DNA of 64,000 bases from Bythopirellula polymerisocia (GTDB taxonomy: Bacteria > Planctomycetota > Planctomycetia > Pirellulales > Lacipirellulaceae): contig NZ_SJPS01000007.1 in the NCBI RefSeq assembly GCF_007860015.1, positions 1 to 64,000 of the forward strand, given 5' to 3'. Position numbers and translations under genes: made by a program. Under the pieces are notes generated by a model that made no database searches, was not told the DNA's origin, and saw nothing but the letters and a program-made list of their open reading frames with translations. Of the stretch, positions 32,851 to 45,523 are shown one piece after another; positions within the stretch are counted from its first letter, which is position 1, and every line of letters begins with the position of its first letter.

Positions 32851-33972
32851 CTAGCTGCAACGTCGTCTGGCGAACTGTAAGCCCAGACTGGCCAGCACTC
32901 CCAGTAATGCCGTACCGGGTTCGGGAATTCGTGCGATCCAACCTTCAAAGTTGCCATCAGGATTGATGCCATTGCCGATGATCACCCTGCCGTCGTCGGA
33001 GATGGCCGTGGCCTCGATTAGGTCCCAACCCGTAAGAGCAATTCCCAAACCGAAGTCGTTGGTCAGCACATCTACCAGATTTCGAATGCCGTTTGAATCA
33101 TCCCAGATGAATGGGTCAGAATCCGCGCCCATTGAAGCAATTCCAACAACGATGCTACCGTCAGCAGTGGTGTCTGTTGCGGAACTGAAGGACCCACCTG
33201 TCAAAAATCCTAAGCCGACCATGTTGGTGGCCTCAGTCCAACGGAATGCTTGAAGGCCTAGGGTGCTGTCGCTGTCGCCAACGACGACTTGGCCATCAGC
33301 AGAAACTCCCAAGGCAGAACTATTCGTCAAACCTCCAGGGAGCTCTCCCAAACCCACTACGCCACCACCGGCAGTCCATCGGAAAGCTTCTGTGCTTGAG
33401 CCGACGTCCCCAAGAACACCAACCACAACTTCCCCGTTTGCCGACAAACCGGTGGAGCCTCCGCCGTCGATAGTAGTTAATACGTTGTTCTTCCAGTGGT
33501 AAGCCATGGTTCCCACAAGTTCAACAATATACGAACCCACTATCACGGCTCCGTTAGCCGAGGTGTCGTTGGCAGAGCTTCCGAGAGCTCCGACAGGAAA
33601 CGGATCAAAATCTGCGGCTGAGTTACTGGTCCATTGCATAGCTCGTGGATTAGCAAATGGAACATCTGGCATATGCGATCCTGCGACCGTACCGCCATCG
33701 TCGCTTACCGCAGTTCCCTCGCTAGAAGCACTTCCAGATGGCATGCCCAATCCGACCATTCCGGTACCTTGAGTCCACAGAAAAGCTTCCCCGCCAACAG
33801 TTGACGTACTCACCCCGGTTACAAAACTGCCGTCAGAGGACAAGTTGCCTGCAAAACTCTCGAAGCTGCCGCCAGCGAGGTCTCCCAAGCCAGCAAAGCT
33901 TTGCGCAGAACTCGTCGCGCAGATACTCAAACAAGCTAGGTACACTGCGGCCGTAAACGATGTCGTTCTCAT
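32851..33972 (-). CDS. HAF-repeat PEP-CTERM surface protein A
   Basis: A 373-residue protein started at MRTTSFTAAV; the GGTGA site lies in the conserved GAGGTGAATCTG just before the ATG, so a GTG nine bases upstream is less likely. The signal peptide ends CATSSAQ. Residues about 25-330 are HAF-family extracellular repeats, with repeated units of the type MVGLGFLTGG, SSATDTTADGSIVVG and EAFRWTAGGGVVGLGELPGG, probably a beta-propeller. The C-terminus IPEPGTALLGVLASLGLQF with ARRRCS is a sorting signal. Third gene of cassette ECF - kinase - PEP-CTERM. Confidence 0.92.
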   Translation of the reverse strand: MRTTSFTAAVYLACLSICATSSAQSFAGLGDLAGGSFESFAGNLSSDGSFVTGVSTSTVGGEAFLWTQGTGMVGLGMPSGSASSEGTAVSDDGGTVAGSHMPDVPFANPRAMQWTSNSAADFDPFPVGALGSSANDTSANGAVIVGSYIVELVGTMAYHWKNNVLTTIDGGGSTGLSANGEVVVGVLGDVGSSTEAFRWTAGGGVVGLGELPGGLTNSSALGVSADGQVVVGDSDSTLGLQAFRWTEATNMVGLGFLTGGSFSSATDTTADGSIVVGIASMGADSDPFIWDDSNGIRNLVDVLTNDFGLGIALTGWDLIEATAISDDGRVIIGNGINPDGNFEGWIARIPEPGTALLGVLASLGLQFARRRCS

Positions 33973-34110
33973 CAGATTCACCTCATTGTCGGCCCGCGGT
34001 ACAATGAAAAGCCATCGCTCGTCGCGCGCGGACCGTGTGCGCGGGCATCCGGCACCGGCCGGTGAGGTGTGGTTGGCGCTACAGGCTCACCGGCCGGAGT
34101 TTTTGTGAAC
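33973..34110 (-). promoter_or_regulatory. conserved two-hairpin leader, copy A
   Basis: It lies between the kinase stop (34125) and the HAF gene start. On the plus strand hairpin 1 pairs CACCGGCCGGTGAG (34053) with CTCACCGGCCGG (34086); hairpin 2 pairs GGCCCGCG (33991) with CGCGGACC (34027). Hairpin 2 ends shortly before the ribosome-binding site. Near-identical copies precede genes at 38664 and 41586. It is probably a 5' leader; on the opposite strand hairpin 1 is followed by T5 and could terminate antisense transcripts. Confidence 0.65.
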
Positions 34111-34124
34111 TCAATTGGTCGTGT

Positions 34125-36695
34125 TCATTCGTCCTTCACTGAGCCGGGTAATTCAGCATTCTCGATGCCGAGTAATCTTGAGACCTCTGTACGGATATGT
34201 TGTGTTTGCCCTGCTCTGGCTCCGTTTTTGTCGACCACTCCATCTGCCTCGTCGTACCATTTGCGGGCCTCTTTTGGCTGGCCAGTCATCGCATACAGTT
34301 TTGCCAAGGCGTTCTGATATTCCTTTGTTAGGTTGTGGTCTGAGCCGTAAATGGATTGAACTTCATCGTACTTATTGCGCATCTCCTCCATGATCGGGAC
34401 AGCTTCATCGTATCGCTCTTGATTTGACAGAAAGCCAACCACATTGAGATAGTACAAAAGGTACATGACTTCCAAAGGTTCGCTCGCCTTCGACGCGCCC
34501 CTCAGGATTTCATTTGCTTCAACCCGATTGCCTTGGAGTGTTAAACACGCAGCGAGCTTGCGTCTTACGACTTGATTCATCGGATGATCTTTGTCGTAGA
34601 TTCTCTCCCTCATTACGAGTGTTTGGCGGAGAAGAGGTTCCGCATCAGCCTCCTTGCCTTGAACAAGCAGGATCTGCCCAAGCACCCACTGTGCACCCAA
34701 TGTCTTGTGATGGTCGGGGCCAAGATGCTCGTGAAACATTTCGTGTGCTTGTCGGGCAAGCGATTCGCCATGATCGTCGCCAATTTCACATGCCGCCAGG
34801 CGTTGGATACAGGCTGCCTCGTCGAGGGGGCGGTTCCCCATTTCGCGGTAAAGCTCCAGACTTTCGGTCAAAAAAGGGACCGCCTCGTCCGAACCCATGC
34901 CCCAGTGTGTGGATGAACCGGCCCGATTGCAGAGACATAATGCAAGTGTTTCCTGGTCGCTGACCAGACGCGCCATGTCCAATCCTGCTTGAGCGTTTGC
35001 TTTACCCTCGGCCGCCTGTTCAATAAAACATTGGCTGTAGCCGAGACTTCCCAGCGCGACGGCGAGCTTAGTATTGGGTTCACCTGGAGCGTCCCGGAAG
35101 CAATTCACGGCCCGTTGGAACGTCTCTACCGCTTTCTTGTGGTAGCCGATGTCTTGGTAAGTACTTCCCAGCGTAAACCACATATCTCCCTGGATTTCCG
35201 GTTGATCTGCCAAATCGCGTTCGACTCGCTCGGCGGTGCCTTCTAGTACTTCGCGGAGTAGCGTCGCATCGCGACCGCGAGCCACGCTTGGCCCCGCTGC
35301 GGCGAGCATGTCCTTGAGGAATTGGGCCACTTGCTCGCTGCGGGCGGCTTCAGTTCCAGCTACCTTTTCAGCGGCGATTGCACGATCGCGCTCAACAGTG
35401 GCGCGTATGGCCTGCCAGGTTGCTACGCCCGCTCCCACAACTAACGCTGTAGCAACTACTGCCATCGTTGCAATCACCACTTTGTTCCGGCGAATGTATT
35501 TGCGGAACCGATACGCGGCCGACGGCGGACAGGCTTCCACCGGCTCGTCTTGCAAGTAGCGTTCGACATCTCGGGCTAGACTGCTGGCCGATTCGTAGCG
35601 TCGATTGCGGTCCTTTTCCATCGCCTTCATCACTAGCCAGTCCAGATCTCCCCGGACTGTCTGCTGCAATTGGCGCACGTCCGTACGATGGCGGTCCGCA
35701 ACGGTTGAGGCCAGGTCGGCGGACAGCGTACTAATCCGCGTGCTGGGTCGGGGCGGTTCTTCCTCGCGAATGATTTGTCGCAGCTCATCAAAGGAGGCCG
35801 ATTGCAGCCGGTCCTTCTCGAAAGGCGTCGTGCCGGTCAACAGCTCATAGAGCAATACACCCAAGGAATAGATGTCGCTGCGAGTATCAACACCCAGGGG
35901 ACTCAACTCGGCCTGTTCCGGGCTCATGTAGAGCGGAGTGCCAATGATTTGGGCAAAGCGAGTCTTGAGCGTGTGCTCGGTGAGTCGCTGGTTGATGGCT
36001 TTAGCGACACCAAAGTCGATGATCTTGGGCGCCGGCCGACCATCCTGCATCGCGATCAATACGTTCGACGGCTTGATGTCGCGGTGGATGACGCCCTTTT
36101 GATGGGCGTGTTGCACTGCCTGACAGACCAGCACAAACAGTTCCAACCTCTCGCGGGTGGTGAGCTTACACTGATCGCAGTACTCGTTGATGGGAATACC
36201 GTGCACGAGCTCCATCACAAAGTAAGGCCGACCCGACTCGGTGGTTCCAGCATCCAACACCTTGGCGATGTTCGGATGGTCCATCATCGCCAGCGCCTGT
36301 CGCTCGGCCTCGAAGCGGGCAATGACCTCTTTGGTATCCATGCCGGCTTTGACGATCTTCAGTGCGACTTCGCGACGGACCGGACGAGTTTGTTCGGCGA
36401 GGAACACCACGCCAAAGCCCCCCTCGCCGATCTGCTCCAGCAGTTTGTAGGGACCGATGTCGACACCCGGTCTCTCAGCGAGTGGACTATGCTCAATGGT
36501 GGCTTCAATCTCGATGGCTGGCTCGTCCAACAGACTTGCATCGCTGCGATGGGCCTCGAGCAAGACTTCTACGCGCCGTCTCAATGCAGCATCTTCCCCG
36601 CACGCCTCCTCGAGATAGCCGGGCCATTGGTCTGGCGTATATTTCTCGATAGCGTCTAGAAAAATCTGTTTGGCATGGCTTGGTGCGGAATTCAT
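34125..36695 (-). CDS. Ser/Thr protein kinase with TPR tail, cassette A
   Basis: An 856-residue protein. The kinase domain is at residues about 81-350: IGEGGFGVVFLAE, VALKIVKAGMD, HRDIKPSNVLI, IDFGVAKAI and YMSPEQAE. A transmembrane helix near 405-425 (VVIATMAVVATALVVGAGV) is followed by a short coiled coil and tandem TPRs (GDMWFTLGSTYQDIGYHKKAVETFQRA). It starts 96 bp after the ECF sigma stop and ends 152 bp before the HAF gene. Kinase-domain sequence is close to cassette C, while the sensor-like tail differs. Confidence 0.95.
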   Translation of the reverse strand: MNSAPSHAKQIFLDAIEKYTPDQWPGYLEEACGEDAALRRRVEVLLEAHRSDASLLDEPAIEIEATIEHSPLAERPGVDIGPYKLLEQIGEGGFGVVFLAEQTRPVRREVALKIVKAGMDTKEVIARFEAERQALAMMDHPNIAKVLDAGTTESGRPYFVMELVHGIPINEYCDQCKLTTRERLELFVLVCQAVQHAHQKGVIHRDIKPSNVLIAMQDGRPAPKIIDFGVAKAINQRLTEHTLKTRFAQIIGTPLYMSPEQAELSPLGVDTRSDIYSLGVLLYELLTGTTPFEKDRLQSASFDELRQIIREEEPPRPSTRISTLSADLASTVADRHRTDVRQLQQTVRGDLDWLVMKAMEKDRNRRYESASSLARDVERYLQDEPVEACPPSAAYRFRKYIRRNKVVIATMAVVATALVVGAGVATWQAIRATVERDRAIAAEKVAGTEAARSEQVAQFLKDMLAAAGPSVARGRDATLLREVLEGTAERVERDLADQPEIQGDMWFTLGSTYQDIGYHKKAVETFQRAVNCFRDAPGEPNTKLAVALGSLGYSQCFIEQAAEGKANAQAGLDMARLVSDQETLALCLCNRAGSSTHWGMGSDEAVPFLTESLELYREMGNRPLDEAACIQRLAACEIGDDHGESLARQAHEMFHEHLGPDHHKTLGAQWVLGQILLVQGKEADAEPLLRQTLVMRERIYDKDHPMNQVVRRKLAACLTLQGNRVEANEILRGASKASEPLEVMYLLYYLNVVGFLSNQERYDEAVPIMEEMRNKYDEVQSIYGSDHNLTKEYQNALAKLYAMTGQPKEARKWYDEADGVVDKNGARAGQTQHIRTEVSRLLGIENAELPGSVKDE

Positions 36696-36791: not shown

Positions 36792-37364
36792 CTATTTGAT
36801 GTCTGTATCCGTTGAGAGCAGTTCGGCGCGAATCCACGCCCGTGCATAAGTCCAGTGACGGTGGGCAGTTGCGCGGTGGATGCCCAACGAGTCGGCTGCC
36901 TCAGCGATGTTCATCCCGGCAAAATAACGCAGCTTGACCACCTCGGCCGCTGTGGGGTCCTCCTCGGCAAGCTTGATGAGGCAGTCGTCGACAGCCATCA
37001 ATTGTTCCGGCGAAACCGAGGTGACCCAATGATCGTCGTCGAGCTCCACACGCTGCGCACCGCCCCCATGTTTCAGTCGTGCTTTTTGCCGAGCGTTTTC
37101 CACAAGGATCCGCCTCATGGCTTCAGCTGCCGCAGAAAAGAAATACCGACGACTATGCCAATGTTGCGCTTCGTCTGTAGCAACAAGCCGAATATAGGCG
37201 TCATGCACCAAGGCGGTCGCTTGCAGTGTCTGGCCGGGTTTCTCGTGAGCCAGTTTCGCAGCGGCCAGTTTGCGCAACTCTTCGTAGACCAGCGGCAAGA
37301 GCTGGTCGGCGGCAGAAGGATCGCCCGCCTCGATTTGTGACAAGATCTGGGTAACGTCGGCCAT
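36792..37364 (-). CDS. ECF sigma factor, cassette A
   Basis: A 190-residue protein started at MADVTQILSQIEAGD because the shared promoter block ends exactly there; the frame extends to 37409. Region 2 includes LLPLVYEELRKLAAAKL, TALVHDAYIRLV and AEAMRRILVENARQKAR; region 4 includes AAEVVKLRYFAGMNIAEAADSLGIHRATAHRHW. It is the ECF type that partners with Ser/Thr kinases. The first 54 codons and 18 upstream bases are almost identical to the gene at 44634-45200; the rest is clearly diverged. Confidence 0.95.
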   Translation of the reverse strand: MADVTQILSQIEAGDPSAADQLLPLVYEELRKLAAAKLAHEKPGQTLQATALVHDAYIRLVATDEAQHWHSRRYFFSAAAEAMRRILVENARQKARLKHGGGAQRVELDDDHWVTSVSPEQLMAVDDCLIKLAEEDPTAAEVVKLRYFAGMNIAEAADSLGIHRATAHRHWTYARAWIRAELLSTDTDIK

Positions 37365-37371
37365 AAGGCCG

Positions 37372-37377
37372 ATTATA
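37372..37377 (-). promoter_or_regulatory. TATAAT -10 element, apparently leaderless start
   Basis: A perfect TATAAT on the minus strand lies only 7 bases before the ATG at 37364, so transcription would start at or next to the A of the start codon. The same GCTGCTATAATCGGCCTT sequence precedes the sigma gene at 45200. No good -35 box is seen. Confidence 0.5.
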
Positions 37378-37436
37378 GCAGCTCGCGCTGAAACCGTGAC
37401 TGGGGACAAAGAACTGATCGCGTGGGTCTGCGGGTA

Positions 37437-37500: not shown

Positions 37501-38664
37501 TCAACTGAACCATTTTCTCTGGAGCAAAAGTCCCCAGCACATTAGCACTCCCAGTAATGCCGTACAGGGTTCGGGGATTTGTGCAATCCAACCCTCAAAT
37601 TTGCCATTGGGATTGATGCCATATCCGATGATCACCGTGCCGTCGTCGGAGATGGCCGTGGCATCGGTAAGATTCCAATCCGCCAGCTCAGAGCCGAGAC
37701 CATAGTCATTGGTAAGCACGTCCACGAGATTCCGCATACCGTGCGATTCGTCCCAAATGAACGGGTCGAAGTCTGGCCCCACGCCCAGCGGGGATGTGAT
37801 GAGTCCGACGATGCTGTTTCCTACGACGATTCCGCCGTCGGCCGTCGTATCACTCGCGACGCTCTGAAACATGCCGCCAGGCAGGTCGCCCAAGCCAACC
37901 ATGCCGCCCCCTTCGGTCCAGCGGAAGGCTTCTGCAAATCCGGACGAGTTGTTGCCGGCGCCGACAACCACGCGGCCGTCGGCCGAAATGCCCGTTGCGG
38001 AGCTATCCCCCGAGCCGCCCGGTAGGAACCCGAGCCTGGTCAAACCATCGACTGCTGTCCAGATGAAAGCCTCGTTGGTCGCTGGAGGCGTGCCGAGGAT
38101 CAAGTCCGTTCCAACCACGACACTGCCATCGGCCGAAACTGCTGAGGCCTCGGCGGTGTCGTCGATTTGTGTGAGCGTGCCGCCGCTCCAGTGAAACGCG
38201 ATGGCGTTTTGAAACTCGCCGGGTTGGAACCCGCCGACGATTGTGCTGCCATCCGCCGAGAGACCGTTTGCCAAGCGGGAGGCCGCTCCCACGGGAAACG
38301 GGTCGAAATCGACGGGTCCACCGCCGGCCGTCCACCGCATCGCCCGAATCGAGGAAAGTTCTCCGTGGAGGCCGACGACCGTGCTGCCGTCGTTGCTTAC
38401 CGCGGTCCCAAAACTGTCTTGGCTGCCGAGCGGCGCCCCCAGCCCGACCATGCCAGTCTCTTCGGTCCATAGAAAAGCTTCCGTGCCGTTTGTCGTGCTA
38501 CTGCTGCCTGTAACGAACTTGCCGTCAGCAGACAAATTCCGTGTAATGCTTTCAAAATCACCGCCTGGCAGGTCACCCAAACCCATAAAGCTTTGGGCGC
38601 TGGCCGGTACGCACAGACTCAAGCAAGTTACGAAGACTTTGGCCACGGATGTTGTCGTTCTCAT
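37501..38664 (-). CDS. HAF-repeat PEP-CTERM surface protein B
   Basis: A 387-residue protein from ATG 38664, with AAAGGTGA just upstream. The signal peptide ends VPASAQ, followed by SFMGLGDLPGGDFES. HAF repeats fill residues about 24-350 (GMVGLGAPLGSQDSFGTAVS, SSATGISADGRVVVG, TATDGTVIIG-like units). The C-terminus IPEPCTALLGVLMCWGLLL with basic tail is a PEP-CTERM signal with Cys after PEP. It is a paralogue of the gene at 32851 and carries the same leader, but lies after the pentapeptide gene rather than a kinase. Confidence 0.92.
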   Translation of the reverse strand: MRTTTSVAKVFVTCLSLCVPASAQSFMGLGDLPGGDFESITRNLSADGKFVTGSSSTTNGTEAFLWTEETGMVGLGAPLGSQDSFGTAVSNDGSTVVGLHGELSSIRAMRWTAGGGPVDFDPFPVGAASRLANGLSADGSTIVGGFQPGEFQNAIAFHWSGGTLTQIDDTAEASAVSADGSVVVGTDLILGTPPATNEAFIWTAVDGLTRLGFLPGGSGDSSATGISADGRVVVGAGNNSSGFAEAFRWTEGGGMVGLGDLPGGMFQSVASDTTADGGIVVGNSIVGLITSPLGVGPDFDPFIWDESHGMRNLVDVLTNDYGLGSELADWNLTDATAISDDGTVIIGYGINPNGKFEGWIAQIPEPCTALLGVLMCWGLLLQRKWFS

Positions 38665-38800
38665 TAGATTCACCTTTCAAGTGGTCCGCGATACAATAAA
38701 AAAGCCATCGCCCCCCGCGCGCGGACTGTGCGCGAGGGCATCCGGCACCGGCCGGTGAGACGTGGTTCGCACTACAGGCTCACCGGCCGGAATTTTTCTG
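38665..38800 (-). promoter_or_regulatory. conserved two-hairpin leader, copy B
   Basis: Between the stop of the pentapeptide gene (38803) and HAF gene B. Hairpin 1 pairs CACCGGCCGGTGAG (38746) with CTCACCGGCCGG (38779); hairpin 2 pairs GTCCGCG (38684) with CGCGGAC (38720). The bases between the hairpins (GCATCCGGCAC) match copies A and C. Confidence 0.65.
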
Positions 38801-38802
38801 GA

Positions 38803-41586
38803 TCAGCTGTCTCCTCTTCGTTGAATAAGTAGTTGGGTAAGTGCCAGCACGCACAGGATTGCCGTACTTGGCTCCGGTACGGCGGCGGATGTGGCCGAGA
38901 GTGGCGCGACTACGCCAAAATTCGTTTTCCAGTCAGTCAAGTCCCCAACGAAAGGCTCTCGTTGCCACTTCAAAAAGTCAGCACCGTCTACATCGCTGTC
39001 GAGGTCAAAATCGCCAGCGAGGCCGGGCGCCACTACCTCGAGCGCCACGCTTTTAGACCCGTAAATCAAATCAAAGCTCAAATCATTCGAGAGGGTCGGA
39101 AACTCAACACTGTCAAATGCGCCTACCACTCCCATGTCGCAAGAAATGATGGTGAACAACGCACCGACAGACGGAAGATAGTTGCTCTCCAACTCGACGA
39201 TCAGAGAGCCCCGCAGGACGGCAAAGGACGAGACGTCCAAAAATCCATATTCTCCCGCTGCTGGGCCTGCCAATGTTACAGCAAGGGTTCCATTGACCGC
39301 TTGCGTATAAGCCCCCTGCGGCAAAATCGCTGGTGATCCGCTCCCCACCCACATCGATCCAGTCGATTCGATTGAAATCCGCCCCGTGACATCGACCCAG
39401 TTGGTTCGCAATTCAGCTTCATCTGCATCGCCGTCACTATAGACCCGCAACACTCCGCCCTGGTCAACCTTGACCCTGCCTCCTCCGTCGATGGAAAGAG
39501 TATCGACAATGCGTACTTCCGCCGTATTGACGACCGGTAGCGAGGGCATGGACGCGGGCAGCAGTGCATGGTGGAGATTGGCACTGTAGAGAACAGATCC
39601 ACCCAGATTGGTCGTCGACAAGTCCGCCCCGGCCAAATTGGTACCGGTAAGCTTGGCCTGCGTCAGGTCAACGTCCTGCAAATTTGTGCCACTCAGATCG
39701 TTTCCACTCAAGTTTACTAAACGCACATCTCTCGCAGAACGGAGCTGGCTATCGTTAATCGATTGCGACCGCGCAGTGTTCCGTAAATCGGCACCTAATA
39801 GATTTGTGTCCGTCAGAATAGCGCTCGACAGGTTAGCATTTAGGAGTCGAGCACTCGTAAGATTGAGGCCGTTTAAGTCGAATCCGCTCAAGTCATTGTC
39901 GCCGAGATTCACACCTATGATACTCGCTGCCGACCGAAGCTGGCTCTCGCTGATCGCCTCTGACCGGTTCAAGTTTCGAAGGTCGGCGTTGGGAAGCCGA
40001 GCGTTGGCGAATTGAGTCGACGCTAGATTCGCGTTGGCAAGTTTGGTTGCAATTAGACTGGCGTGTTGCAGGTCGAGACCACTGAGGTCAGAGCCACTGA
40101 GGTCGTTACCTGACAGCGTGATCCCTTGGATGTTTGCTGCGGATCGTAGTTGGTCGGCGGTGATCGCCTGCGCTAAGTTCGAGTTCCTGAAATCCGTGTT
40201 GTTAAGATTGGCGCCGGTAAAATCTGTGTTGGTTACGTTCGTACTTATAAACTTGGCTAGCTCCAGATTTAATCCTCGCAAGTTATCCGAGCCGGCTTCA
40301 TTGGCGCTTAAATTCACTGCTCGAACATCCGCTGCGGACTGAAGCTGCTGATCGGTGATGGCGCCAGAAAAGTTGGGATTACGCAGGTCGGCATTGTAGA
40401 GACTTGCCCCGGAGAAGTTTGTATTCCTTATGTTGGCGTTGTGCATGCTGACATTCTTTAGATTTGCCCCGCTCAGGTTTGCATTCGTCAAGTAGCCCTC
40501 CGATAGATCTGCGTTTTGGAAGTTGATGCCACTGAGGTTGTAGCCACTGAGATCGTTGGCACTGAGATTAACGCCCGTGACATCAGACGCAGCTTGCAGT
40601 TGGTAGGCGACGATCGCTTCACCCCGATCCGCATTGCGCAGATCAGCACCCTTCAGGATGGTGTCGGTCATGTCAGCGGGGTAATAGCCAGAAAGTATCG
40701 CGTCGGACAGATTTGCCTGTGTGAAATCTGCTTGGGTAAGATTCGCATTGATGAAATCGGCGCCGCGGAAATTTGCGCTCACCGCCGTCGCTAAGAACAT
40801 GGAGGTACTGCCAAATATGGCGTCCTCCGCGTTTACATTGTCAAGCTTAGCCCTGCTCAGGCCGGCGGCGGTTAACCTCGCATTGGTCAGACGAGCAGAA
40901 CCAAGGTTCGCGTAGGTCAGGTCCGCCTGTGACATGTCCGCGCCGGTCAGATCCGTATTACTTAGGTTCGTAACCGACAGATTGGATTGAATCATTTCGG
41001 CGCCGCTCAGATTCTCACCTTGCAGATTCCACGCCTGCATGTTATTTCCGCTGAGATTTACTTCACGTATATCACTGGCAGTTATAAGTTCCACGTTATT
41101 AATACCCGAGTCGCGAAGATCCGCATTGTAGAAAATTACGCCAGAAAAATCGGCGTCGTTGTAGATGAGCACGTCTCGCATGTCTGTATTGGTCAAATCG
41201 GCATCGCGGAAAATGGTGCCATTGATTCGCGAGCCTTGCAGGTTCGCACCTAGTAGATCCGCGCCTCTGAAATTGGCCCTGGAAAGAGCTGCGTGCGCGA
41301 GATTCGCGTACCGCATGTTGGAGAACAAAAAGTACGTCTCGACCAGCCTTGCAGATTCGAGGTCTACAGCGTAAAGGTATTGAGAATTGTGCAGGTGATC
41401 TGAGTGGTCTTCCCCGCTATGATCGCCGTACGCTTCCAGGTCGTCCTCCGCGGCCGCCATCGATACGAAAGTGCCGGCTAAAGCCACGCAGAGAATGGGC
41501 GCTAGCCTCCGTATTAATGCACAGATCAGACGCAGGCGTGACAAAATTCCGATCATCGCATCAGTGGAACAGGTCGTAGTTTTCAT
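38803..41586 (-). CDS. giant pentapeptide-repeat PEP-CTERM protein
   Basis: A 927-residue protein from ATG 41586 with GGGGTGA upstream; the frame extends to 41670 through the leader. A long N-terminus contains a hydrophobic signal (PILCVALAGTFVSMAAA). Residues about 75-690 consist of pentapeptide A(D/N)LXX repeats forming a right-handed beta helix (ANFRGADLLGANLQGSRING), with a higher-order period of 65-70 residues opening QLRSAxxI and NLSGNDLSG. A beta-rich region and dockerin repeat GDFDLDSDVDGADFLKWQR follow, then AVPEPSTAILCVLALTQLL and RRGDS. It is the output gene of cassette C. Confidence 0.93.
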   Translation of the reverse strand: MKTTTCSTDAMIGILSRLRLICALIRRLAPILCVALAGTFVSMAAAEDDLEAYGDHSGEDHSDHLHNSQYLYAVDLESARLVETYFLFSNMRYANLAHAALSRANFRGADLLGANLQGSRINGTIFRDADLTNTDMRDVLIYNDADFSGVIFYNADLRDSGINNVELITASDIREVNLSGNNMQAWNLQGENLSGAEMIQSNLSVTNLSNTDLTGADMSQADLTYANLGSARLTNARLTAAGLSRAKLDNVNAEDAIFGSTSMFLATAVSANFRGADFINANLTQADFTQANLSDAILSGYYPADMTDTILKGADLRNADRGEAIVAYQLQAASDVTGVNLSANDLSGYNLSGINFQNADLSEGYLTNANLSGANLKNVSMHNANIRNTNFSGASLYNADLRNPNFSGAITDQQLQSAADVRAVNLSANEAGSDNLRGLNLELAKFISTNVTNTDFTGANLNNTDFRNSNLAQAITADQLRSAANIQGITLSGNDLSGSDLSGLDLQHASLIATKLANANLASTQFANARLPNADLRNLNRSEAISESQLRSAASIIGVNLGDNDLSGFDLNGLNLTSARLLNANLSSAILTDTNLLGADLRNTARSQSINDSQLRSARDVRLVNLSGNDLSGTNLQDVDLTQAKLTGTNLAGADLSTTNLGGSVLYSANLHHALLPASMPSLPVVNTAEVRIVDTLSIDGGGRVKVDQGGVLRVYSDGDADEAELRTNWVDVTGRISIESTGSMWVGSGSPAILPQGAYTQAVNGTLAVTLAGPAAGEYGFLDVSSFAVLRGSLIVELESNYLPSVGALFTIISCDMGVVGAFDSVEFPTLSNDLSFDLIYGSKSVALEVVAPGLAGDFDLDSDVDGADFLKWQREPFVGDLTDWKTNFGVVAPLSATSAAVPEPSTAILCVLALTQLLIQRRGDS

Positions 41587-41725
41587 CAGATTCACCCCGA
41601 GGTATGTCCGCGGTAGAATAAAAATGCCTTCGCCCCCCGCGCGCGGACCGTGCGAGGGTGCATCCGGCACCGGCCGGTGAGGTGTGGTTGGCGCTATAGG
41701 CTCACCGGCCGGAGTTTTTCTGGTT
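41587..41725 (-). promoter_or_regulatory. conserved two-hairpin leader, copy C
   Basis: Between the kinase stop at 41750 and the pentapeptide gene. Hairpin 1 pairs CACCGGCCGGTGAG (41668) with CTCACCGGCCGG (41701); hairpin 2 pairs GTCCGCG (41606) with CGCGGAC (41642). It is as similar to copies A and B as they are to each other, although the downstream coding sequence is unrelated. Confidence 0.65.
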
Positions 41726-41749: not shown

Positions 41750-44557
41750 TCAATCGGAAAGTTCTTTCTCTTCGATTCCGATCAGTGTTGCCGTCTCATT
41801 TCGTAAGCGGAGCAGCGTTGAATCATCCGGTTTATTTTCTTCCATCCACCCGATAGCTTGGTTGTACCAGTTGCGGGCTTCTCCTTTCTGATCCAATCGC
41901 CAATAAGCCATGGCTAGGAAGAACCCGTCGCATGCATCGGCACCCTTACGAAGCTCGACTGCTCTGTCCAAGGACTTGACTGCTGTGTCCATCTCGCCCG
42001 CGCGAAATTGTGCGACGCCCAACGTCTTCCAATAATCCGGTACTTCCGGTTCCCCATCTGTAGCCAACTGGGCGAATTGAATTCCTTCGCCTGATTCACG
42101 ATATGGAGAATACCGGTCGGTGGCACACCACCACGCCAAATGGTTCGCGTGACGACCGCCAGGCGCGAGTTCAATTGCTCTCCTCAGCATCCGCAGTGAA
42201 CGCTGAGGATGTCTCAGCATTGTGAGCTCGGCATATGCTGCCATATGGAAAGCCTCAGCTAACATTCTGGGCGCGAGGACATCACGTAAATCTTCGACTG
42301 CAGTGGCATCTCCCTTGGCTTCTGCTATTTCGATAAGTTCAACAACTGCTCTTCCTGAATATCGAGGAGGATAGGCTGCATGAGAGTCGCGAAAGTGAGC
42401 AAGCGACTTTTGGAAGCAAGTTTCTGCTTCATCAAGATTGTCGTCGTCTCGAAATGCCAAGCCGAGGTAAAACCAACTCCATCCAGTCGTGACTGGCTCG
42501 TCGTCGTGAAGCTTCTTGCATCTATCGATGGCGTCGCGAGCCAGTTCCAGGGCCGCGTCCTTTTTCCTCAAGCCATTCTTTACAAGCGACAGATTGTAAA
42601 TGAAACTGGACGCTTGTGTTGAGTTTTCGAGATTGAATTGATGAGCGATCTGTAGCGACTCTTCGGCTAATCGCTCCGCATCTTCAAGTCTCGATTGACT
42701 GAGATAGTTCAAGAGCAGCCAGAAACGAGCACCAAGTGCTCGGTCGTGTTCGCCGCACTCGTCATAGATTGCGAGAGCTCGCAGGTACATCTCTTCGATG
42801 TGATATTTATCATTCCAAGGTGACCTCCACAAGTTCTTCGCCAGTTCACGGACAGCGTCCGCGTACATAACATGTTTTTCACCGAAGACTTCGCGATTCA
42901 GTTGGAGCGAGCGGGTCAGATGGGGCTCCGCTTTGTCCGCCAGGTCCAGTTCGCGATATGTCGTGCCGAGAATCTGTCGTATTACCATTTCGACTTCAGG
43001 CTGTTTCACCAATTTGGCGGATTGACTGTCGAGACTGGCGGCGAATTCGTCAAGAAGATCTTCCACAGTGTAGTGGCGACCTTTGTTCCTGTCGGGGGCG
43101 GTCACGGACAGCATTTCTTTGAGCAAAGCGACTACAGCGGTTGCCCTGTCTGCTTCGGCAATTGCTTTTTTCGTTTCCTCGGCTGCTTTTTGTGCTTCGC
43201 TGTCTGCACGTAGGGTTTGTTTCTCTGCGGCTGCTTCGGCAATCACAGCGCGGTCGCGCTCCTGGGTTGCACGAATGGCTTGCCATGTTGCCACCCCCGT
43301 GCCCGCCAAGAGAGCGGTAGCAATAACTGCCATCGTTGCGATGGCCGCTTTATTCCGTCTGACAAACTTTTGGAAATTGTACGCCGCCGACGGCGGACAG
43401 GCTTCGACCGCGTCCCCATTGAGGTAATGCTGCACGTCCTCGGCGAATTTGCTGGCCGTTTCGTACCGCCGAGTGCGGTCCTTCTCCAGCGCCTTCATCA
43501 CGATCCAGTCGAGCTCGCCATGGACCAAGGCGCTGAGCTGCTTCGGCTCGATATGGCGGTTGGCCGCGATTGACGGGAGCGATTCGCTGGTGCTCAATCG
43601 CGTGCTAGGCCTGGGAGGTTCCTCCTCTCGGATAATACGGAGAAGCTCATCAAAGGCAGCGCTTCGGAGTCGCTGGCGGTCGAACGGGGTTTCACCGGAG
43701 AGCAATTCGTACAACACCACACCCAAGGAATAAATGTCGCTACGGGTGTCGACATCCCATTGATTGAGCCGCGCCTGCTCGGGGCTCATGTATTCGATTG
43801 TCCCAAGAACCTGGCCGAACTCGGTAAACATCGTCTTTTCCGTAAGTCGATGCTCGACCGCCTTAGCAACTCCAAAGTCGATGACTTTGGGCACAGGCTG
43901 GTCGTCGTAGTGGGCCACGAGCACATTAGACGGCTTGATGTCGCGGTGAATAATCCCTTTTTGATGGGCGTGCTGCACGGCCTGACACACCGGCAGAAAC
44001 AATTCCAGCCGCTCACGCGGGGTAAGGTGATGCTGATCGCAATACTCGGTGATCGGAATACCCTTCACCAGTTCCATTACAAAATATGGTCGGCCGGTGT
44101 CGGTCGTTCCGGCATCGAGCACCTTGGCAATGTTGGGATGATCCATCATCGCCAGCGCCTGCCGCTCCGCTTCAAACCTGGCGATCACTTGTCGTGTGTC
44201 CATACCAGGCTTGATGATTTTGAGTGCTACTCGGCGCTCGATCGGCTCGGACTGCTCGGCCATGTAGACCACGCCCATGCCCCCTTCGCCGATCTGCTGC
44301 AGGAGCTTGTAGTGGCCAATCGTGTCCCCTGATTGTTCGGTGATTGGTTGGGCGATTGTAGCGGAGAGGTTTAACCCCGGGGCAGGAGCTTCGAGGAAAC
44401 TGCCTAATTCCTGCTGGGCACTCAAAAGACGTTCGACGCGAGAACGTAGTTGGGCGTCGTCACCACAGACTTCTTCCAGATAGTCCGCTCTCTCGTCGCC
44501 GGTCTTTTCGAGGGCAACTAAGTAAATATCGTCGATTCTTGGTCTTTCCAGAGGCAT
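41750..44557 (-). CDS. Ser/Thr protein kinase with TPR tail, cassette C
   Basis: A 935-residue protein. Kinase domain near residues 81-350: IGEGGMGVVYMAEQ, VALKIIKPGMD, HRDIKPSNVLV, IDFGVAKAV and YMSPEQAR. A transmembrane helix (AAIATMAVIATALLAGTGV) near 405-425 is followed by a long coiled coil rich in Ala/Glu/Lys and a C-terminal array of TPRs (ALGARFWLLLNYLSQSRLEDA; AELTMLRHPQRSLRMLRRAIEL). It starts 76 bp after the sigma factor stop. It probably transmits an envelope signal to the partner sigma factor. Confidence 0.95.
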   Translation of the reverse strand: MPLERPRIDDIYLVALEKTGDERADYLEEVCGDDAQLRSRVERLLSAQQELGSFLEAPAPGLNLSATIAQPITEQSGDTIGHYKLLQQIGEGGMGVVYMAEQSEPIERRVALKIIKPGMDTRQVIARFEAERQALAMMDHPNIAKVLDAGTTDTGRPYFVMELVKGIPITEYCDQHHLTPRERLELFLPVCQAVQHAHQKGIIHRDIKPSNVLVAHYDDQPVPKVIDFGVAKAVEHRLTEKTMFTEFGQVLGTIEYMSPEQARLNQWDVDTRSDIYSLGVVLYELLSGETPFDRQRLRSAAFDELLRIIREEEPPRPSTRLSTSESLPSIAANRHIEPKQLSALVHGELDWIVMKALEKDRTRRYETASKFAEDVQHYLNGDAVEACPPSAAYNFQKFVRRNKAAIATMAVIATALLAGTGVATWQAIRATQERDRAVIAEAAAEKQTLRADSEAQKAAEETKKAIAEADRATAVVALLKEMLSVTAPDRNKGRHYTVEDLLDEFAASLDSQSAKLVKQPEVEMVIRQILGTTYRELDLADKAEPHLTRSLQLNREVFGEKHVMYADAVRELAKNLWRSPWNDKYHIEEMYLRALAIYDECGEHDRALGARFWLLLNYLSQSRLEDAERLAEESLQIAHQFNLENSTQASSFIYNLSLVKNGLRKKDAALELARDAIDRCKKLHDDEPVTTGWSWFYLGLAFRDDDNLDEAETCFQKSLAHFRDSHAAYPPRYSGRAVVELIEIAEAKGDATAVEDLRDVLAPRMLAEAFHMAAYAELTMLRHPQRSLRMLRRAIELAPGGRHANHLAWWCATDRYSPYRESGEGIQFAQLATDGEPEVPDYWKTLGVAQFRAGEMDTAVKSLDRAVELRKGADACDGFFLAMAYWRLDQKGEARNWYNQAIGWMEENKPDDSTLLRLRNETATLIGIEEKELSD

Positions 44558-44633: not shown

Positions 44634-45200
44634 TCAGTCTTTTTTACGGTCCTCTAACTCGCAGAAAAGGAAAACCTTCGCGTAAGCCCAGTAACGGTCA
44701 GCAGTTGAGCGGGAAATGCCCATAGCCTCCGCTGCCTCAGATAATGTCATTCCGGCGAAGTACCGTAGCTTCACCAGCTCGGACTTCTCCGATGATTCGG
44801 CTTCCAATTTTGAGATCGCCTCATCCACAATCAGGATGTCTTCAGAGCACTTGTCTTCGATTGAACATGCTTCATCTAGCTCGATTCGCTTGAATTCACC
44901 ACCGTGTACGAGACGGCGTTTCCTTCGCGCGTTATCAATTAGGATGCGCCGCATCGCCTCGGCCGCTGCTCCGAAGAAGTGGCCCCGACTGTTCCATTGC
45001 TGCGCCTTCTCTACATCGACGAGTCGGAGATACGCATCATGCACCAAGGCGGTCGCTTGCAGTGTCTGGCCGGGTTTCTCGTGAGCCAGTTTCGCAGCGG
45101 CCAGTTTGCGCAACTCTTCGTAGACCAGCGGCAAGAGCTGGTCGGCAGCAGAAGGATCGCCCGCCTCAATTTGTGACAAGATCTGGGTAACGTCGGCCAT
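44634..45200 (-). CDS. ECF sigma factor, cassette C
   Basis: A 188-residue protein beginning MADVTQILSQIEAGD. Region 2 is LLPLVYEELRKLAAAKL, TALVHDAYLRLVDVEKA and AEAMRRILIDNARRKRR; region 4 is KSELVKLRYFAGMTLSEAAEAMGISRSTADRYW. The N-terminal 54 codons and promoter are almost identical to cassette A, but the C-terminal DNA-contacting part differs, so the two would likely recognise related -10 and different -35 elements (inference). No anti-sigma gene is present. Confidence 0.95.
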   Translation of the reverse strand: MADVTQILSQIEAGDPSAADQLLPLVYEELRKLAAAKLAHEKPGQTLQATALVHDAYLRLVDVEKAQQWNSRGHFFGAAAEAMRRILIDNARRKRRLVHGGEFKRIELDEACSIEDKCSEDILIVDEAISKLEAESSEKSELVKLRYFAGMTLSEAAEAMGISRSTADRYWAYAKVFLFCELEDRKKD

Positions 45201-45207
45201 AAGGCCG

Positions 45208-45213
45208 ATTATA
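45208..45213 (-). promoter_or_regulatory. TATAAT -10 element, apparently leaderless start
   Basis: TATAAT lies 7 bases before the ATG at 45200 within the block shared with cassette A. The implied start site coincides with the start codon. The sequence further upstream differs from that of cassette A. Confidence 0.5.
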
Positions 45214-45430
45214 GCAGCCCCAAATTCTGATCACAGTCGCTGTATAAGTTACGTCGTGTTCGCCTAAAACGACAAGGTTGCAACGAAATCTTCTTGCTAT
45301 TGAAAGAAGTAGCCGATTTGGATCTCGGCTGGCTCTGCGTATTGGCAGGATTCGAGTACCTAGCTGAAACGTGCAGAGCAGCAGTATGCCTCGCCAAACG
45401 ATCGGTTAGAATAGGAAGTCCATTGAACAA

Positions 45431-45486
45431 TAGTCACCTTTCGCTCCGCGAATGTAGCGCTGCTTTCGCGGAGCGAAAGGTGACTA
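45431..45486. repeat. perfect 22-bp inverted repeat element
   Basis: Arms begin TAGTCACCTTTCGCTCCG and end CGGAGCGAAAGGTGACTA, perfect over 22 bp with a 12-base spacer. It lies 38 bp before the plus-strand gene at 45524. The perfect arms and lack of gene indicate a REP/MITE-type mobile hairpin. It may also shape the promoter or leader of the neighbouring gene. Confidence 0.85.
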
Positions 45487-45523
45487 ACTATGAAACTTTC
45501 AACCGCGAAGATATGTAGTGCGA

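Follow-up and report, generated by a model that had tools for sequence, protein, structure and literature searches.

How two neighboring sigma factor genes that have otherwise diverged can carry almost the same 182 bp at their 5′-ends is the question raised by the locus analyzed here, which lies in a 64,000-nt stretch of Bythopirellula polymerisocia DNA (the window; NZ_SJPS01000007.1) from a draft genome of 6.14 Mb in 27 contigs. Both genes, sigma A and sigma B (Table 1), are on the minus strand, with ATG codons at 37364 and 45200, and both match PF07638 over their full length (residues 1–182 and 1–183; 211 and 207 bits against a cut-off of 21.1). A Ser/Thr kinase (STPK) gene directly follows each sigma gene on the same strand and, read leftward, the order is sigma B, kinase B, a pentapeptide-repeat PEP-CTERM-type protein, a HAF-like PEP-CTERM-type protein, sigma A, kinase A and a second HAF-like PEP-CTERM-type protein. 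A third sigma–kinase–PEP-CTERM module is located elsewhere in the same genome, on contig C2, and sigma–kinase–HAF modules are also present on contigs C46 and C26 of Aeoliella straminimaris ICT_H6.2 (G034), a genome of the same family. The two HAF-like genes of the window show a patchily raised silent identity (31/44 at codons 304–363), and no conversion tract was found between kinase A and kinase B. Other tandem paralogous stretches in the window (8199–8609/9944–10345 and 9155–9655/10891–11388) are 70–72% identical. A 56-bp inverted repeat at 45431–45486, self-complementary at 93%, separates sigma B from the divergent gene at 45518 and is probably a transcription terminator.

Table 1. Features of the two sigma–kinase modules and their surroundings (positions in the window).
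Feature	Position	Strand	Basis or remark
Sigma A, PF07638 Sigma70_ECF, 190 aa	36792..37364	-	hmmscan 211 bits, E 1.6e-62
Sigma B, PF07638 Sigma70_ECF, 188 aa	44634..45200	-	hmmscan 207 bits, E 3.6e-61
Probable converted block, sigma A	37201..37382	-	GCTATAAT box and codons 1–54; 180/182 vs 45037–45218; silent 51/53
Probable converted block, sigma B	45037..45218	-	180/182 vs 37201–37382; silent identity 51/53 codons
TATAAT box, sigma A	37372..37377	-	hexamer starts 13 nt before ATG; predicted leaderless promoter
TATAAT box, sigma B	45208..45213	-	hexamer starts 13 nt before ATG
QATA, codons 48–51 (Thr50), sigma A	37212..37223	-	replaces acidic DAED motif; predicted phospho-switch
QATA, codons 48–51, sigma B	45048..45059	-	same basis as sigma A
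Ser/Thr kinase with TPR adjoining sigma A	34125..36695	-	PF00069 162 bits and TPR families
Ser/Thr kinase with TPR adjoining sigma B	41750..44557	-	PF00069 153 bits and TPR families
Exported HAF-like protein, PEP-CTERM-type end, between the two modules	37501..38673	-	ORF
Second HAF-like PEP-CTERM-type protein, after kinase A	32851..33981	-	ORF
Pentapeptide-repeat protein, PEP-CTERM-type end, after kinase B	38803..41670	-	PF00805 267 bits
Structured leader, copy 1	33989..34103	-	covariance-model match
Structured leader, copy 2	38681..38796	-	covariance-model match
Structured leader, copy 3	41603..41718	-	covariance-model match, covariation

A first-pass annotation of the window had described a near-identical block with sharp limits, and an ungapped comparison returned the same count of 180 identical bases out of 182. 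The block comprises 18 bp 5′ of the ATG, 54 codons and two further bases, and its two mismatches (37332/45168 and 37311/45147) are both silent. Upstream of it, the same comparison detected no similarity between the two genes; downstream, the identity drops immediately to approximately 65–70% and then lower, and the proteins are 49% identical past codon 54 (codons 58–188). The flanks of both copies are intact and differ on the upstream and downstream sides. Further copies of the block, for which the annotation had advised a search, were sought throughout the 6.14-Mb genome; none was near-identical, the next paralog being 81% identical from the ATG onward. The best match within the genus reaches only 77%, and its neighborhood is not in common.

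Silent identity was measured as the proportion of identical codons at residues where both aligned proteins agree, among PF07638-type sigma genes of this and other genomes. Sigma A and sigma B share 51/53 such codons within the block (codons 2–54) and 18/60 beyond it (codons 58–188; Fisher p 3e-14), against between-genome means of 0.371 and 0.358, respectively; dS is approximately 0.05 inside the block and saturated outside. Given the family average of 0.37, a match of at least 51/53 has a probability of approximately 6e-20, and this pair shows the largest N-minus-C difference in silent identity among 5,967 gene pairs; chance is therefore excluded. In a best-segment search (148 genes, 10,873 pairs), the pair scores 42.4 with limits at codons 2–54, whereas the 99.9% quantile of the between-genome scores is 12.1 and their maximum, 34.2, comes from one pair of near orthologs. 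Purifying selection behind the block identity, the alternative that the annotation itself had named, is contradicted by a between-genome silent identity of only 0.37 over codons 2–54, and its protein-level form is ruled out by the silent sites of the pair. The best relatives match sigma A at 19–24 of approximately 50 codons, and most silent sites are therefore free to change.

These features are best explained, we are fairly confident, by recent non-allelic gene conversion between neighboring paralogous sigma–kinase modules. Two such modules in direct orientation, each made up of a sigma gene, an STPK–TPR gene, a leader and at least one gene for an exported protein, would have contained sigma genes that diverged long ago. 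Homologous recombination between the loci, which are 7.8 kb apart, or between sister chromosomes would then have overwritten approximately 180 bp of one sigma gene with the sequence of the other, with no exchange of flanks. The tract would be the only part similar enough to pair, namely the -10 box, the start codon and early region 2 up to the QATA motif, and would stop upstream at the end of homology and downstream within homologous sequence. The remainder of the sigma genes would have diverged to saturation before the event, and the two silent changes would have been gained since. As an outcome, one type of leaderless -10/ATG element would start transcription of both sigma genes, and their products would share an identical surface for core binding and kinase switching (Thr50), with region 4 and the kinases retaining separate identities. 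The gene conversion or domain replacement suggested by the annotation is strongly supported, on the silent sites, as recent conversion or an equivalent recombination; its left boundary does not count as evidence of an event, since it coincides with the fixed -10 box. The accompanying idea that promoter and core-binding part are kept while specificity diverges is better recast as conversion where the paralogs are still similar enough.

In a tree of the C-terminal part (codons 58–185), sigma A and sigma B are not paired, although their N-terminal parts are identical; sigma B groups weakly with a sigma factor of a Planctomicrobium MAG and sigma A is placed elsewhere, but an AU test does not reject their sisterhood (p 0.17). 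No sufficiently close sister species with both orthologs was found, so the state before conversion is not seen, and the donor could not be distinguished from the recipient.

Similar tracts occur in other genomes. Two adjacent sigma genes on A. straminimaris C46, 4.9 kb apart, have a silent identity of 57/62 over codons 6–80, with different upstream DNA and diverged ends, and two sigma genes of G040 share a short tract (codons 44–62) with a silent identity of 19/19. When such recent pairs are removed, silent identity is still higher within than between genomes in the first 30–50 codons or so, and hardly beyond. No such tract was found in the linked sigma pairs of G027, G071, L114 and Stieleria; proximity alone is therefore insufficient, and it was rejected as a general cause, most linked sigma pairs being without a tract. 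Comparisons of the kinases failed to establish strict orthology between the sigma–kinase pair of the window and the C46 pair, and concerted evolution of an orthologous pair is therefore not claimed. A homogenized tract with sharp ends between neighboring paralogs that are saturated outside it is reportedly also a feature of interlocus gene conversion, for example among duplicated teleost genes (PMC10503786) and at Mycobacterium tuberculosis antigen loci (PMC13061034); in contrast, the present tract consists of the promoter box and the region 2 part of ECF sigma genes. The literature searched yielded no report of gene conversion in ECF sigma factors.

Among the alternatives, the one that survives best, though improbable, is a chimera in which a gene, either older or newly arriving, recently had its 5′-end replaced by a copy of its neighbor's through insertion or crossover, possibly when a foreign module was imported. 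The C-terminal part of sigma B is closest, with weak support, to the sigma factor of the Planctomicrobium MAG, which belongs to another family (69% identity), and the genome contains N-terminal sigma relics (C2:428174-428332, which has a stop), as such a replacement would allow; but both genes are full length with intact flanks and kinases, the tract is confined to homologous sequence, which is what conversion predicts, and the unrelated neighboring pair of A. straminimaris has a tract of a similar kind. An assembly artifact, in which one locus was given the block sequence of the other, is conceivable in a draft of 27 contigs and yet very improbable, because two positions inside the block distinguish the copies, each copy has flanks unique to it, reads can span so short a block, and another assembly shows a similar pattern. 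A mobile-element or plasmid origin was rejected: there was no plasmid match, the 21-bp start had no exact match in viral contigs, and no other near-identical copy is present in the genome.

Least probable of all is purifying selection on the 5′-end nucleotides (a promoter, a leaderless start or an RNA-level function) that keeps the copies alike, for which the constant offset of the -10 box across many genera and a within-genome silent identity raised at codons 2–9 would speak, but which is contradicted for codons 10–54 by the between-genome values, which are no higher than downstream, and by the poor match of the best relatives. Alongside gene conversion, a 5′-weighted constraint on nucleotides contributes at the -10 box and perhaps in the first nine codons.

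Of 38 same-family sigma genes, 19 have a TATAAT-like hexamer whose first base lies exactly 13 nt upstream of the start codon, and four more have it at 14 nt; at every other offset within the final 45 nt, it occurs at most once. Paralogs of other genera carry the -10 box at the same distance from the ATG; only this hexamer is common to them, with no conserved -35 element or other upstream DNA. The upstream end of the block is where homology stops, not a recombination scar. No Shine-Dalgarno sequence is present in the 18 bp 5′ of the ATG, and the spacing of 6–7 nt between box and ATG would place the transcription start at the start codon, which suggests that both sigma genes are transcribed as leaderless mRNAs from the -10 box. 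Two other long ORFs of the same genome begin with GCTATAAT-N6-ATG, and the 21-mer GCTATAATCGGCCTTATGGCC is also found in front of an unrelated rhodanese/pseudouridine-synthase-like gene in G029; the arrangement is therefore a start type of general use and not specific to sigma genes. Genome-wide, the totals of GCTATAAT-N-ATG are not above the control (17 vs 23), and only the 6–7 nt spacing stands out. In G072, a member of another Pirellulales family, sigma genes (L184-L188) have approximately 50 bp of conserved upstream DNA (GGCTAGACTCAA...GCGGCGCCG) and a longer spacing to the ATG, a promoter arrangement of a different type.

The sigma family also contains remnants. A relic of a sigma N-terminal part (approximately codons 13–65, one stop; G000:C2:428174-428332, or L180:10175-10333 on the minus strand) lies just 5′ of the intact third sigma gene (C2:427972), and disrupted sigma genes in G005, G034 and G035 (L063:4483, L183:9211 and L065:2015) retain the start-proximal block and a -10-like box; the latter suggest birth and death in the family.

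The downstream end of the block falls within still-homologous DNA, four codons past Thr50. Most sigma factors carry an acidic DAED motif at this position, which binds core RNA polymerase. In sigma A and sigma B, the DAED of region 2.2 is replaced by uncharged residues that include a phosphorylatable one (QATA); Thr50 does not vary among the aligned family members (148/148), and in a weak alignment (E 0.15) with QAED of M. tuberculosis SigL it stands opposite Glu. ECF43 sigma factors have STTA at this position, and phosphorylation of the second Thr by a neighboring kinase turns the sigma factor on (PMC8999054, PMC8103513). Thr50 thus sits where kinase-activated ECF factors carry the phosphorylated Thr, and its phosphorylation is predicted by this analogy. 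As in EcfP/PknT of Vibrio parahaemolyticus and EcfK/PknS of Xanthomonas citri, the sigma gene adjoins an STPK gene, and QATA resembles the STTA of EcfP as an uncharged motif in place of DAED with Thr third (PMC8999054, PMC8103513). Unlike ECF43, the present factors belong to the PF07638 family and occur in planctomycetes with TPR-bearing kinases, and their phosphorylation is a prediction. Since the tract extends past QATA in both genes, sigma A and sigma B carry the same predicted switch surface beside different kinases.

The surroundings contain a structured element of approximately 116 nt that precedes three exported-protein genes in the window and, in several Pirellulales families, lies between STPK–TPR genes and exported PEP-CTERM-type genes. 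A covariance model matched it in 12 of 147 Pirellulales genomes (other copies include G000:C2:422916-423031 [L264], G034:C26:15714-15830 [L258] and G102:C170:65759-65878 [L247]), and no Rfam match was found. Most non-seed matches are downstream of an STPK gene, several are 2–5 kb 3′ of a same-strand PF07638 sigma gene (twice in G102, and in G040, G067, G000 C13, and G034 C86 and C74), and the genes that follow encode exported proteins, often of the PEP-CTERM type. Its two helices, GGCCGGTGAG/CTCACCGGCC and GTCYGCG/CGCRGAC, flank a T-rich stretch and covary, with changes on both sides in 14/19 pairs and 95% of cells paired; these values are reached by no shuffle, and slid controls fall far below them. 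The alignment was fitted to the covariance model, and an unfitted nine-sequence alignment gave the same trend. The element may act as a regulatory leader, or it may represent a conserved terminator/attenuator; it is possibly a regulatory RNA or target site of the sigma–kinase modules. PrsK/PrsR/PrsT-linked regulons of Proteobacteria likewise join exported PEP-CTERM genes, signaling with a TPR protein and a conserved upstream element (PMC1569441), but that element is a sigma-54 DNA motif, whereas here an ECF sigma–STPK module accompanies a leader with covarying helices. The leader offers a way into the question of what these modules may regulate; it may be of more interest than the conversion event and merits separate study.

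The conversion event is ordinary in kind and somewhat unusual in what is homogenized. Mosaic genes of this kind would mislead ECF trees built from whole proteins, including published ones. Planctomycetes have many ECF sigma factors paired with Ser/Thr kinases, which have been little tested; since the part under the predicted kinase switch is common to neighboring modules and the DNA-reading part is private, cross-talk between modules becomes a concrete, testable question. It is tempting to speculate, although we regard this as doubtful, that planctomycete sigma–kinase modules repeatedly exchange a 5′ switch cassette (leaderless -10 box, core-binding surface and kinase-target Thr motif) by conversion while promoter-recognition domains, kinases and exported targets diverge. 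If so, new signaling channels would arise on a common, concertedly evolving switch.
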